From an uncultured Bacteroidales bacterium (lineage in GTDB: Bacteria > Bacteroidota > Bacteroidia > Bacteroidales > Paludibacteraceae): a stretch of 64,000 bases of DNA. Below, in pieces: positions 9,727-35,537 of the stretch (the stretch's first letter is position 1; every line of letters starts with the position of its first letter). The notes under the pieces are model-generated. The model saw nothing but the letters and a program-made list of their open reading frames with translations. It did no database searches and was not told the DNA's origin. The position numbers were made by a program, and so were the translations under genes. Location of the stretch: contig ONJT01000012.1 in the NCBI GenBank assembly GCA_900318245.1, positions 89,473 to 153,472 of the forward strand, given 5' to 3'.

Positions 9727-10226
9727 TGGCAGACGATTTTAAGACATATCAACCCGGGTGGGAAAAGCAGAAAGAGCGCAAACATTATCATCACCATCAT
9801 CATCGCCGCGATGACCAATACACCAACAGTTGGGGCGGTTGGATGAAGATGAGGGATAAACAGGCGTATTACGGCTTGATGCTCATCGTGATAGCTGTGC
9901 TGGGCTTTGGTATATACATGATCGTCAAGATGTATATGGACGAATGGCGCGCTATGCCGCATGATGACCCGACGACGGAGCGAACGGTAGATGAGTTGCG
10001 CATCCATAAGGCCGATGAACGCGACGCGCTGCTGTATTCCGACAGCTTGTCGCAGGCCTATAAACTTGATTCGCTCAAGCGTAATGTCCAGATAGAGACG
10101 CGCCCAGTATATCGTCCGCCACGTAAGGAGGATACATGGTATATCACCCAGCGCGAGTGGAAGGATATATGGAAGAGATTGAAGATTTGGAAAATAAGCC
10201 AATCAAAAGACAAAGATAACGAATGA
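9726..10226 (+). CDS. Small single-pass membrane protein, His-rich N terminus
   Basis: 166 aa, not recognised. The cytoplasmic N terminus is charged and carries five consecutive histidines (residues about 21-25) among basic residues, which could bind metal. One hydrophobic helix spans about residues 49-70 and is followed by a charged C-terminal part. It overlaps ffh by one base and folD by four (ATGA), so it is translated with them. Position next to ffh hints at membrane protein biogenesis, but nothing in the sequence proves it. Confidence 0.7.
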   Translation: MADDFKTYQPGWEKQKERKHYHHHHHRRDDQYTNSWGGWMKMRDKQAYYGLMLIVIAVLGFGIYMIVKMYMDEWRAMPHDDPTTERTVDELRIHKADERDALLYSDSLSQAYKLDSLKRNVQIETRPVYRPPRKEDTWYITQREWKDIWKRLKIWKISQSKDKDNE

Positions 10227-31924: not shown

Positions 31925-33277
31925 TTATTTTAATTTCATGGACTTCCATGAAGAAGCTGCTTTCGGACTGGTAGCGACTACTGGAGTCTGCGGTTTTTCG
32001 TTAATCAAGAATGCTTCTTTCTTTACGTTTTTATTAATGTATCCCGCAAGTTCATCATAAGTCACGTCACCACTTGTCTCTTGCAGTTTTTTGAGCAAGA
32101 AATAGGTGAATAATCCGTGTCCTTTTTCCGGGTAAGTCATAGCCGTCTCATCAGCACTGGAGGCGGAGAAAACGACGGCATTACCATCCAATTTCTCTTT
32201 CTTTGCTTCCCGCGCAACACCACGTGCAGCAACCAGCATACTTCCCTCTTTGTTAGCACCTGTAAAGCAAGCGTCCATGAAATAAGTAACGTTAACTGCT
32301 TTGGTGGCAGCCAAAGTGGTGTACAGTTTGTTGAGGCTATAGCAGGTTGCGGTGTTCGTACCCTTGCCATCTACCGGTACGATGTACGCATCACCCGTTT
32401 TCTCGTCTGGAATACCATGACCGCAGTAATAAACTATGGCTTTGCTGCCCTCAAAGTTATTCAGCGCATATTTGAGCCAATCTACGCCACCTGAAATCAC
32501 GCCATAAGAAGCATTGGAGCAATAACGTACTTGCTTTTCAGGAATACCCAAAGTTTTGATACAATACTCTTTGAATACCTCGCCGTCATGGGAAGCAAAG
32601 TTCACGGGGTCAACAAACTGGTAGTCCTCATTGGCAATGATAAGTGCATAAGTATTATCTGACTCTTTCTTAGTTTGTGGAATATTTGAATCTACATCCG
32701 ATTGTATAGTTTTTGCCTTTTGAGCCGACTTACCTGCTTGAGCGAGATGTGGCTGCGAATAATCACCTTCAATGACTTTTCCAGTCTTTTCATCAATTTG
32801 TTGTCCTTCTTCGTTATAAAATTTCTCATCTTTAAATGCTATAAAACCAGCATACTGTACGGGGTTCGCACCTTGCTGAAGTTTCATGAATTTATTCTTG
32901 TCAATTTGAGCAATTTTAAACTTCTTTTCATCAATTTTCACATAATAATCCTGTCCGGCTAAAGCATTAATGGTTAAAGAATAGTTCGGCTGATTTTTTT
33001 TAATATCATCATAAGGGAGGTTTCCTACATAGCCAGTAATGTTATGGCTACCGGGCTGAACTTCCAACTTATAATATGTTAATGAATTAACTACTCCAAA
33101 TTTATGACTATCAAGATCTATCCAATGCTGCATTTGGTAGTACTTTTTCCCACCATACACAGCAGCCATTGCTGCTCCAAAATCAAATGGGCGCACCAGA
33201 TAGATATGGGCACTTTCTTCAGCAGCTATATTACCTATCATAAACAAGGCAATTAGCATTAGTTTGATTTTTTTCAT
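31925..33277 (-). CDS. Secreted caspase-family (C14) peptidase
   Basis: 450 aa. Signal peptide 1-19, then a ~120-residue beta-rich N-terminal domain. A linker (about 150-207) leads to a caspase/metacaspase p20-like domain. The catalytic dyad is seen as YYCGHGIP (His287) and FMDACFTG (Cys337). The preceding SNASYGVISGGVDWL is typical of bacterial caspase homologues. Most bacterial caspases are cytoplasmic effectors. This one should act in the periplasm or at the outer membrane. It is the last gene of an operon with a DUF4384-like and an LPP20-like gene, both also exported, and is followed by a terminator. Confidence 0.88.
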   Translation of the reverse strand: MKKIKLMLIALFMIGNIAAEESAHIYLVRPFDFGAAMAAVYGGKKYYQMQHWIDLDSHKFGVVNSLTYYKLEVQPGSHNITGYVGNLPYDDIKKNQPNYSLTINALAGQDYYVKIDEKKFKIAQIDKNKFMKLQQGANPVQYAGFIAFKDEKFYNEEGQQIDEKTGKVIEGDYSQPHLAQAGKSAQKAKTIQSDVDSNIPQTKKESDNTYALIIANEDYQFVDPVNFASHDGEVFKEYCIKTLGIPEKQVRYCSNASYGVISGGVDWLKYALNNFEGSKAIVYYCGHGIPDEKTGDAYIVPVDGKGTNTATCYSLNKLYTTLAATKAVNVTYFMDACFTGANKEGSMLVAARGVAREAKKEKLDGNAVVFSASSADETAMTYPEKGHGLFTYFLLKKLQETSGDVTYDELAGYINKNVKKEAFLINEKPQTPVVATSPKAASSWKSMKLK

Positions 33278-33283
33278 AATAGA

Positions 33284-34126
33284 TTATTTTTTGATTGTTA
33301 ATACTATTTCTTCTGCTTGCGCAGTGGTATCATAGACTCGCAAACCGTGAAGCCATTTTTGAAATTTAGAGTTTTCTACTTCGGGAACAAACTCCCCTTT
33401 GTTACTCAATGAAATATGGAATTTCTTTTGCGAGAAAACCACAATGAGGGTGTTGTTTTCAATGCTTTTCGAAGTCGTAAGAATGGTTTCTTCGTCGTAC
33501 GGATATTCTGGATCTTTCGTACAAAGGAAAAAATACTCCTTATTGCTTTTGACCTCGCGCGCATTACCATCGCTTCCATCATAAGGCATCATCACATTGA
33601 CAATATCGTTGTTGTCATCGCGGATAAAAACGGCTACGTAACCGCTTGCCGCAGACTTAAACGAGACAGAGAAACGGTCGTTATTCTTGAAATTGGTACT
33701 TTCAAATCCATTGTTTAGTGGTCTTACTTGCAGTTCTACCATTTCACGCTTCTGCTCGCGCACTTTGCCGCAAACTTCAGCATGTATAACCATCATGTCA
33801 TTGCGGTATTTTACTTCTACCTCCGGCTCTTTCGTATCGCTGATCCATATACCACGCACCTCATTCTCGCTGAAAGAATTGAAACTACTGTTTGTTTTTC
33901 CGTTGCTGGTGTGCATAGCAGTAGTATTCGTTTGTGAAACGATTGTTCCGAACTCGTCTGCGATCGCCTTTAAACGCGCTTGAGTTATAGCAGTTTTTTT
34001 TGCTTCAACCAGCGTTTGTGTCTCGGGTACAATGTAATCCACCTCACCGCAAGCGTTTTCTGTCCGTTGTGCGAGGACTGCCGTACTCCCCAAGAACAAA
34101 AGCAATATGAATAGTTTTGTTTTCAT
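33284..34126 (-). CDS. Exported DUF4384-like protein
   Basis: 280 aa with a signal peptide (cleavage after VLAQ, about residue 19). The N-terminal half (KKTAITQARLKAIADEFG) looks like the TolB-N/LPP20-like helical-strand unit found in surface lipoproteins. The C-terminal half (RFSVSFKSAASGYVAVFIRD and on) matches DUF4384, often found with caspases or kinases in bacterial signalling proteins. It is separated from the caspase gene by six bases and overlaps the upstream gene by one base. DUF4384 and caspase are often fused in one protein. Here they are split. Confidence 0.75.
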   Translation of the reverse strand: MKTKLFILLLFLGSTAVLAQRTENACGEVDYIVPETQTLVEAKKTAITQARLKAIADEFGTIVSQTNTTAMHTSNGKTNSSFNSFSENEVRGIWISDTKEPEVEVKYRNDMMVIHAEVCGKVREQKREMVELQVRPLNNGFESTNFKNNDRFSVSFKSAASGYVAVFIRDDNNDIVNVMMPYDGSDGNAREVKSNKEYFFLCTKDPEYPYDEETILTTSKSIENNTLIVVFSQKKFHISLSNKGEFVPEVENSKFQKWLHGLRVYDTTAQAEEIVLTIKK

Positions 34127-34803
34127 TAGAATCCGAGCACCTTATCCAATTGCGCATGCAAATCCATTCCCTTCTTCTCCAACTCCTCTCGTACCGCATT
34201 TTTGGTCGCCTGTTTTGCCATCTCGCCATTATAGGCGATACGAACTAGAACTTCGTAGTTTTTGTTTTTAACTCGTCTGTACATCTCTGTAACAGGAATA
34301 ACACGACCGATGGATTGTGCGATAGAGTTTTTACTTGCCATAACGCTTTCCGTAATGGATGCGGCATCCTCAGGTGCTAATTGCTTATTGCCGACGGTGT
34401 TCTCAATAAGTGCGCTTACTTCAGTCTGAATCTGTCCTGCGAGGTTAGTAATTGCCAACGACATAGCAGCAGTCTTGGCTGCATCGTAGTTTTCTCCGAT
34501 TGAAGAAGCCTCACCCATAATATACTTCGGATAATTATTCTCATCGTATTCAAACTGCATCAAGTAACTTCTCTCTAATTGTTTCTCAATCGGAAGAGCA
34601 CCCGGCTTTACTTCCCATCCTTCTTTGATGTACTTCTTTGCGGCTTTTTTAGTTGTTTTGTCAACTCTGGCCTTCAACTCGCTTTTTGCTAATTTGCGAA
34701 TTTCCTGACGCTCCTTGTTGAGTTCTTTTTGCTCGTTTTTGTCGGCAAAAGCCAAACCACATGCAACGATTAAGGCCATTGCTACCATCATGATTTTTTT
34801 CAT
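34126..34803 (-). CDS. Exported LPP20-like protein
   Basis: 225 aa. Signal peptide 1-20 (ends GLAFA), then a charged helical linker and an LPP20-type domain. The characteristic AKTAAMSLAITNLAGQIQTEVSALIE cut is split between two helices at about residues 110-135. The family includes surface antigens that bind the outer membrane, and its function is unclear. It is the first gene of the caspase operon. No TAnnTTTG promoter lies in the 92 bases before it. The nearest is that of the RNA at 34896-35201. Confidence 0.72.
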   Translation of the reverse strand: MKKIMMVAMALIVACGLAFADKNEQKELNKERQEIRKLAKSELKARVDKTTKKAAKKYIKEGWEVKPGALPIEKQLERSYLMQFEYDENNYPKYIMGEASSIGENYDAAKTAAMSLAITNLAGQIQTEVSALIENTVGNKQLAPEDAASITESVMASKNSIAQSIGRVIPVTEMYRRVKNKNYEVLVRIAYNGEMAKQATKNAVREELEKKGMDLHAQLDKVLGF

Positions 34804-34895: not shown

Positions 34896-34931
34896 AAAAA
34901 AAAGCGGGACTGCAATATTGCTGTTCCGCTT
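34896..34931 (-). terminator. Terminator of the structured RNA
   Basis: Stem 34931-34923 with 34910-34902 (one mismatch), inner GCAATATTGC palindrome, then eight U. It lies 92 bases before the LPP20-like gene. Readthrough could therefore control the caspase operon. Confidence 0.75.
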
Positions 34932-35201
34932 CTTGAGGCTCTGGTATTGCCTTTTGTTCCAAACAGCAACACCGTAGCCCACGCTGTATGTATATCATTA
35001 ATAAGGTACGCGATATGCGCACACGATGTATATACACACCATGGACATCTTAGTGTCGCAATGTTTTGGAACAATGAATTTACCAGATTCCAAGAAGCCA
35101 AAACAAAGCGCGTAAGACGCCTTTTTCAATATGTCCTGTATCTCCCGCCCGAAAGACATATTCCCTCAGCGCGGGCTCGATACGGCAAAACTTTCGTTTT
35201 G
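34896..35201 (-). ncRNA. Candidate structured RNA, about 306 nt
   Basis: Bounded by a consensus promoter (35207-35238) and a terminator (34896-34931). From the 5' end it has a GCAAAAC-GAAA-GTTTTGC hairpin (35202-35185). A pseudoknot follows: 35179-35183 pairs with 35138-35142, crossing 35155-35162 with 35128-35135. Then comes a 171-nt irregular rod (35098-34928) made of at least five aligned helices. These are 35091-35098/34928-34935, 35081-35087/34940-34946, 35062-35073/34955-34965, 35053-35059/34966-34972 and 35030-35039/34986-34995, two using G-U only possible in this strand. Rod length recalls 6S RNA but I found no diagnostic match. Confidence 0.6.
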
Positions 35202-35206
35202 CGCTG

Positions 35207-35238
35207 CAAAATTAATACTTTTTTTTGATATATGCAAA
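35207..35238 (-). promoter_or_regulatory. Promoter of the structured RNA
   Basis: Minus strand TTTG (35238-35235), 20 bases, TAATTTTG (35214-35207). Spacer sequence is the same as at 29279-29298. Confidence 0.75.
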
Positions 35239-35318: not shown

Positions 35319-35537
35319 TTATTTGTCACTATTAAGGGGGAATGTGGGCAACTGCTCGTATTCCTGACCTGTTGACCCCATATGTCGGAATTTCCGACAT
35401 ATGGTATTCATATCCAATTCTCCAGACTGATAGATATTTCTCAGGTGTTCTGTAATGGTTGACCGACCTTTGTCAAAAAGGATAGCAATCGCTTCTTGCG
35501 TTGCCCAGATAGACTCGTCTTGGTAGAAGACTTGTTT
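35319..35537 (-). pseudogene. RhuM-family fragment
   Basis: A 72-codon stop-to-stop frame reading DESIWATQEAIAILF, then DKGRSTITEHLRNIYQSGEL, then CRKFRHMG. This is the N-terminal helix-turn-helix part of RhuM-type virulence/mobile-element proteins. It lacks a start and the rest of the domain. Its codons contain a 27-bp near-perfect palindrome (35378-35404). Not functional as read. Confidence 0.6.

Follow-up and report, generated by a model that had tools for sequence, protein, structure and literature searches.

A structured RNA ahead of a caspase operon is one copy of a Bacteroidales-wide, multi-copy family of probable cis-acting leaders

The DNA immediately upstream of an operon that encodes a caspase-domain protein in an uncultured Bacteroidales bacterium raises the question of whether an RNA transcribed from it governs the operon, and of what kind this RNA is. 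We analyzed the locus within a stretch of 64,000 nucleotides (the window). A preliminary description of this DNA had placed a structured RNA ahead of the operon, and the RNA is real, lies on the minus strand and occupies the position given there. The minus strand of window positions 34896–35201 folds at -118.7 kcal/mol (z -7.4, 0 of 100 shuffles as good), and the plus strand folds more weakly (z -4.3, likewise 0 of 100). The elements of the locus are listed here in the order of transcription.

35207–35238, minus strand: promoter motif TTTGC-N19-TAATTTTG (motif scan)
34896–35201, minus strand: structured RNA of about 306 nt, a probable leader (fold z -7.4; homologues and covariation)
34904–34929, minus strand: intrinsic terminator hairpin, -10.8 kcal/mol
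34896–34903, minus strand: U8 tract (motif scan)
34126–34803, minus strand: first gene behind the RNA, 225-aa protein of unknown function that satisfies a crude signal-peptide rule
33284–34126, minus strand: second gene, 280 aa, LPP20-like (below the Pfam cut-off)
31925–33277, minus strand: third gene, 450 aa, caspase domain (Peptidase_C14, Pfam E 1.1e-16)

The promoter, which we take to be of the Bacteroidales type, and the terminator with its eight U residues stand as previously described, and both recur among homologues. A like promoter motif precedes 61 of 95 copies of the RNA, where letter shuffles lead one to expect 1.08, and a terminator follows 91 of 96 copies, against 12 in letter-shuffled sequence, and in 90 copies the 5′ arm of this terminator begins no more than 25 nt before the end of the covariance model (eight extra copies were added for the promoter and terminator counts). 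No second promoter motif of this type was found by the motif scan from the terminator to the ATG at 34803, in agreement with the earlier statement that the caspase operon has no standard promoter of its own. The absence of a credible protein frame was also confirmed: the reading frames that overlap the RNA are not conserved, the aligned span of the minus-strand frame being free of stops in only 4 of 39 homologues and that of the plus-strand frame in only 2 of 39, and the region does not behave as a protein-coding gene. Just 5′ of the promoter, on the minus strand of window positions 35320–35520, a remnant of a RhuM/ORF6N-like reading frame was noticed by eye.

The RNA is one copy of a large family found across the Bacteroidales and is not peculiar to the caspase operon, an aspect that the preliminary description had missed. 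In 61 genomes of the genus, blastn returned many related copies, often several per genome (short matches to bases 1–44 represent the common promoter). Forty genus copies were fetched with their flanks on the basis of blastn score, and further copies were picked by model score; one copy cut at a contig end (L050) was left out of alignments A1 and A2, and both L050 and L036 were left out of A3 and hence of the covariance model R1, which was built from 39 copies. R1 detected 8 copies in the genome of origin, a ninth match being the reverse strand of the window copy. It had matches in 110 of 200 sampled genomes of the bacterial family (19 of 33 genera; at least 12 matches in the richest genome), in 77 of 393 sampled genomes of the order Bacteroidales (42 of 204 genera) and in 4 of 392 sampled genomes of the phylum, namely the genome of origin, one other from the order and two from the same class; these three samples overlap, and the order and phylum searches may miss distant members because R1 was used there with stricter filters. 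The two copies from outside the order are compact (147 and 143 nt) and keep the L1 helix described below along with other helices; the gene behind the compact copy L303 starts like a signal peptide, as does, by eye, that behind L304. A pattern for the 3′ part of the RNA had at least 119 matches in named genomes, and among the matches listed 79 of 80 were labelled Bacteroidales or Paludibacteraceae and one Bacteroidia, many of them being of animal-gut origin according to their labels. The copies are neither a random nor an independent sample, many being close relatives. Those in the genome of origin diverge down to about 50 bits, and the structure is kept across the family.

Rfam 15 had no match over the window RNA at the gathering score, and at E up to 10 the 12 matches in the region were at chance level, far below their cut-offs, with neither 6S nor Bacteroidales-1 RNA among them. 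No match at cut-off lay over the RNA in 20 sources with copies or in a set of 20 sources, 17 of which hold the whole RNA or part of it by R1; six more sources searched at E up to 0.5 had none over the RNA, the only matches lying elsewhere in L302. Article titles, the opening parts of abstracts and passages of PMC8040213 and PMC9723704 contain no description of the RNA, and supplementary tables may hide one; the family is apparently undescribed.

The way in which homologues vary supports the helices of the RNA. In the wide alignment (59 copies, fitted to R1), both partners vary in 51 of 57 pairs, and there are 679 double-change cells compared with 215 in shuffles. The genus alignment has 97.6% of cells paired and 195 double-change cells compared with 57 in shuffles; it counts the base helix as A:C, a pairing that hardly varies and is no longer favored. 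Individual helices were examined by a swap test, in which the duplex energy of two strands from the same copy is compared with that of strands exchanged among 46 distinct copies (out of 48 diverged copies) in 5000 permutations, which do not allow for relatedness. The elements of the core and the results for each are as follows.

35108–35121, minus strand: hairpin Pa (GGCGUCUUACGCGC), 98.7% of cells paired in the wide alignment
35098–35109, minus strand: strand A (GCUUUGUUUUGG), partner of B; swap A:B z -8.7, 78.2% of cells paired
35090–35098, minus strand: strand X5, partner of X3; swap z -25.3, among the top mutual-information pairs
35076–35090, minus strand: hairpin GAAU..AUUC with loop L1 (UCUGGUA), the loop being the partner of L1′; 100% of cells paired, L1:L1′ z -11.7
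35068–35073, minus strand: strand Y5, partner of Y3; swap z -22.6
35058–35069, minus strand: strand B (CCAAAACAUUGC), partner of A (swap test)
34971–35057, minus strand: apical rod R, conserved helices beneath a variable tip; 88–93% of cells paired
34959–34970, minus strand: strand D (GUUGCUGUUUGG), partner of C; swap D:C z -8.4, 78.4% of cells paired
34955–34960, minus strand: strand Y3 (swap test)
34940–34946, minus strand: strand L1′ (UACCAGA; swap test)
34928–34935, minus strand: strand X3 (swap test)
34918–34927, minus strand: strand C (GGAACAGCAA), common to the D:C helix and the 5′ arm of the terminator; D:C as above, terminator pairing C:T z -5.5

For each of X, Y, L1, A:B and D:C, and likewise for C:T (46 distinct copies), none of the 5000 permutations equaled the true partners. 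A MAFFT alignment, made independently and analyzed for mutual information, places X5:X3, L1:L1′ and Y5:Y3 at the top. Rival pairings are weaker and non-zero (A:C, z -2.7, 19 of 5000; core of B:D, z -2.0, 91 of 5000), and control pairings gave z values of 1.1 (A:D), -0.9 (B:C), -1.1 (D:T), -0.7 (A:T) and -1.5 (B:T); D:C itself had first been entered as a control pairing and was spotted post hoc because it scored highest. The A:B and D:C columns are just 78% paired in the wide alignment. In the independent alignment, position 34964 in D can pair with 35063 in B in 91% of cases and with 34923 in C in 92%, and position 34928 covaries with X5 and also with the 3′ arm of the terminator.

The swap tests favor two pseudoknotted hairpins, and the best-supported core would consist of hairpins A:B and D:C with their loops joined through X, L1 and Y. 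The preliminary description had drawn this part as a rod; helices X, L1 and Y and the apical helices of that drawing are real, and its base is better explained by A:B together with D:C, so that a pseudoknot appears to describe the core better than a simple rod does. The simple rod, with A:C as the antiterminator, was dropped as the main pairing since the diverged copies favor A:B and D:C; R1 still leans towards the A:C rod, as do the alignments that were fitted to this model (A4, A5 and A7). The weaker signals for A:C and B:D would still allow the four strands to exchange partners between the pseudoknotted form and the rod. Three column pairs of the apical helices (88/191, 109/170 and 101/180) are G-U or U-G in 18, 18 and 12 of 40 rows, respectively, and A-U or C-G in some other rows; as had been proposed, these one-sided changes fit G-U pairing in the minus sense. 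The RNA shares with cis-regulatory leaders of the terminator type a conserved structure backed by covariation.

The 5′ part of the RNA forms a domain of its own.

35186–35201, minus strand: 5′ hairpin CAAAACGAAAGUUUUG, found in part of the homologues only
35129–35176, minus strand: 5′ H-type pseudoknot (swap test of the second stem)
35176–35171 with 35148–35144, minus strand: first stem of the pseudoknot, GCCCGC with GCGGG
35161–35155 with 35136–35129, minus strand: second stem of the pseudoknot, AUAUGUC with GGACAUAU

The two-stem pseudoknot of the preliminary description was upheld: in the swap test, the second stem gave z -5.4 with 0 of 5000 permutations in 77 distinct copies, drawn from 94 with enough upstream sequence, of which 16 were without the anchor motif (seven extra copies were added for this test). 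The crossing stem reaches -4 kcal/mol or lower in 37 of 60 listed copies, a count without a control, and the domain takes at least two forms among the copies by eye. The 5′ hairpin is present at the locus, and its GAAA cap, which had been described, is by eye not conserved among homologues.

For gene context, 88 of 95 cmsearch matches were used; the remaining seven scored low and lay on the strand opposite to copies that had been included. In 77 of 79 copies the next called gene downstream runs in the same direction as the RNA, and in two it is opposite (9 of the 88 copies have no called gene there); upstream genes are co-directional in 55 of 78. The RNA thus also shares with terminator-type leaders its position ahead of a co-directional gene, and the earlier suggestion that readthrough controls the operon gains support by inference from these counts. 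The downstream start lies within 149 nt of the end of the model in 46 of 77 copies and more than 500 nt away in 14 of 77, in part because nearer short reading frames escaped the gene caller, which had these same loci as its training set and overlooks short genes. By a crude, home-made rule, 48 of 77 downstream proteins carry a signal peptide, compared with 98 of 410 other genes. A Pfam search of 71 downstream proteins (those starting within 600 nt, trimmed to 450 aa) found BspA-type leucine-rich repeats in 11 and outer-membrane barrels in 2, as well as other surface repeats, a C10 peptidase and restriction-type and kinase domains. In function these genes are a mixture that points to no particular ligand.

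Small proteins with a twin-arginine-like start, together with a radical-SAM-like protein, were seen by eye behind three copies (L029, L030 and L031), an arrangement that resembles a peptide-maturation cassette. Six other copies (L107, L109, L063, L040, L058 and L064) have RelE-, PIN- or RhuM-like neighbors upstream or downstream; by eye, these genes resemble parts of toxin-antitoxin systems.

The first gene of the caspase operon offers a view of the same gene with and without the RNA. Matches to the 225-aa protein occur in 53 of the 178 genus genomes searched, and 30 orthologous loci were fetched. R1 matches upstream of 14 of them, at 31.6 to 198.6 bits, and in one more (L281) the 3′ half of the RNA is visible by eye next to a run of N. 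When the 330 nt upstream of the remaining 15 genes were inspected by eye, 12 of these genes proved to sit closely behind another reading frame; one is preceded by a promoter but not by the RNA, and two by a DUF805b element in its place. The RNA is mostly absent where the orthologue follows another frame and thus seems tied to genes that head a transcription unit.

The DUF805b RNA (RF02914), which is cis-regulatory according to its Rfam label, is present in the same genome as the new RNA; it has 35 positions only and shows no match to the new RNA in the Rfam scans. Two of its three matches in the genome of origin sit 44–48 nt behind copies of the new RNA, at G000:C21:126262-126296 (behind L111) and G000:C35:10083-10117 (behind L109, just under cut-off). 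At L044 a DUF805b element likewise lies behind the new RNA, and at L293 and L296 one lies ahead of the orthologous gene, where R1 has no match.

The terminator helix and the alternative D:C helix share strand C, and both are conserved, with exceptions. Among the eight copies of the genome of origin, three (L107, L108 and the L109 copy at 10161) have a terminator hairpin with hardly any overlap with C, so simple mutual exclusion is not universal and is weaker there. Just past the terminator, four copies (L029, L033, L036 and L051) have a second similar short stem (approximately AAGCGGAACAC...GCTTTTT), perhaps a duplicated terminator.

What the computation shows, namely a fold backed by covariation, a strand common to two helices, motifs for a promoter and a terminator, and genes that run in the same direction, would suit transcriptional attenuation with the folded domain as the antiterminator. 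We consider it probable, at roughly 0.6, that the window RNA is a cis-acting leader of a Bacteroidales-wide family and governs whether polymerase reads through into what follows, in this case the caspase operon. In our best reading, the leader would be an attenuator that works like an ON riboswitch, the fold blocking the terminator. Transcription would start at the RNA's own promoter; the 5′ pseudoknot would fold first, followed by the core hairpins A:B and D:C, with helices X, L1 and Y joining their loops. Should the pseudoknotted fold form early enough, D would hold C, no terminator would form and RNA polymerase would read on; otherwise C would pair with the 3′ arm of the terminator and transcription would stop. 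We infer that the RNA is transcribed as drawn and that the two pairings of C constitute a regulatory switch, set by a ligand or a protein, with the fold as the ON state.

Several other readings have to be weighed against a cis-acting leader. A free-standing, trans-acting small RNA that merely lies beside these genes would account for the complete and compact fold and for the promoter and terminator motifs that accompany most copies, and we regard it as unlikely in view of the nearly uniform orientation of the next genes and, by eye, of the RNA being mostly absent where the orthologous gene follows another frame. Processive antitermination of the put or EAR kind, with the RNA loading onto polymerase so that later terminators in long operons are read through, appears unlikely as well: the large pseudoknotted fold and some very long downstream genes (for example, 1381 and 1821 aa, open at the fetched end) would suit it, but a terminator placed directly behind the RNA and sharing strand C is more simply understood as a local switch.

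The many dispersed copies, the restriction-type genes behind some of them, the toxin-antitoxin-like genes beside others and recombinase-like genes seen by eye near L055, L056 and L067 are what a mobile element, such as a MITE-like or integron attC-like palindrome carrying or flanking cassette genes, might leave. This origin is nonetheless very unlikely, given the one-sided substitutions that yield G-U pairs in the sense of the RNA, the retention of promoter and terminator motifs, the preservation of structure in copies that diverge to about 50 bits, and the lack of any exact pattern match in viral contigs or blastn match in plasmids and phages. The likeness to 6S RNA suggested in the preliminary description drew on length and the rod-like drawing. 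Bacteroidales-1 RNA (RF01693) and 6S RNA (RF00013) indeed fall in a similar size range, but neither of these Rfam models matches at the locus, the 6S model has no match anywhere in the genome of origin, and eight copies in that genome also speak against a divergent 6S RNA, which is hardly credible. At another place in this genome, G000:C21:149373-149586, the Bacteroidales-1 model matches weakly (29.7 bits, cut-off 60), and this is the best candidate that we saw for the genome's 6S-like RNA. The preliminary interpretation was, overall, partly supported.

Terminating riboswitches and attenuators are 5′ leaders with a covarying fold, in which a helix and the terminator share a strand, and they precede different genes. 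A cis-acting leader of the kind favored here resembles them in its position as a 5′ leader, its compact covarying fold, the shared strand and the varied genes behind it. It differs from known attenuator leaders in its size of about 300 nt, its two pseudoknot domains and its enrichment ahead of genes of the exported type, and in having neither an Rfam match at cut-off nor a known ligand. EAR and put are antitermination RNAs, structured and located early in the transcript. The new RNA is likewise structured and would lie early in the transcript, with long genes behind some copies, whereas its local terminator shares a strand with the fold. The new RNA would work like the known attenuator leaders, yet it stands outside every described family with which we compared it.

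More tentatively, the family might constitute a new class of sensing RNA that places a scattered regulon of surface, exported and defense genes under one common signal, which might be a second messenger or an RNA-binding protein. Such a class would extend across the Bacteroidales, where genomes would carry several copies, with compact forms in another order of the class. Elsewhere, c-di-GMP riboswitches tie scattered regulons to one signal.

The members of this family are likely gene-control RNAs. If this is true, one order of abundant gut bacteria has a large overlooked class of such RNAs ahead of genes that often encode exported proteins, and the family adds a new pseudoknotted RNA architecture with a shared strand supported by covariation. 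It would also help to find out how the choice of surface proteins is made in these bacteria and would offer a way to test for a common signal. If the attenuator reading holds, the copy in the window would switch the caspase operon.
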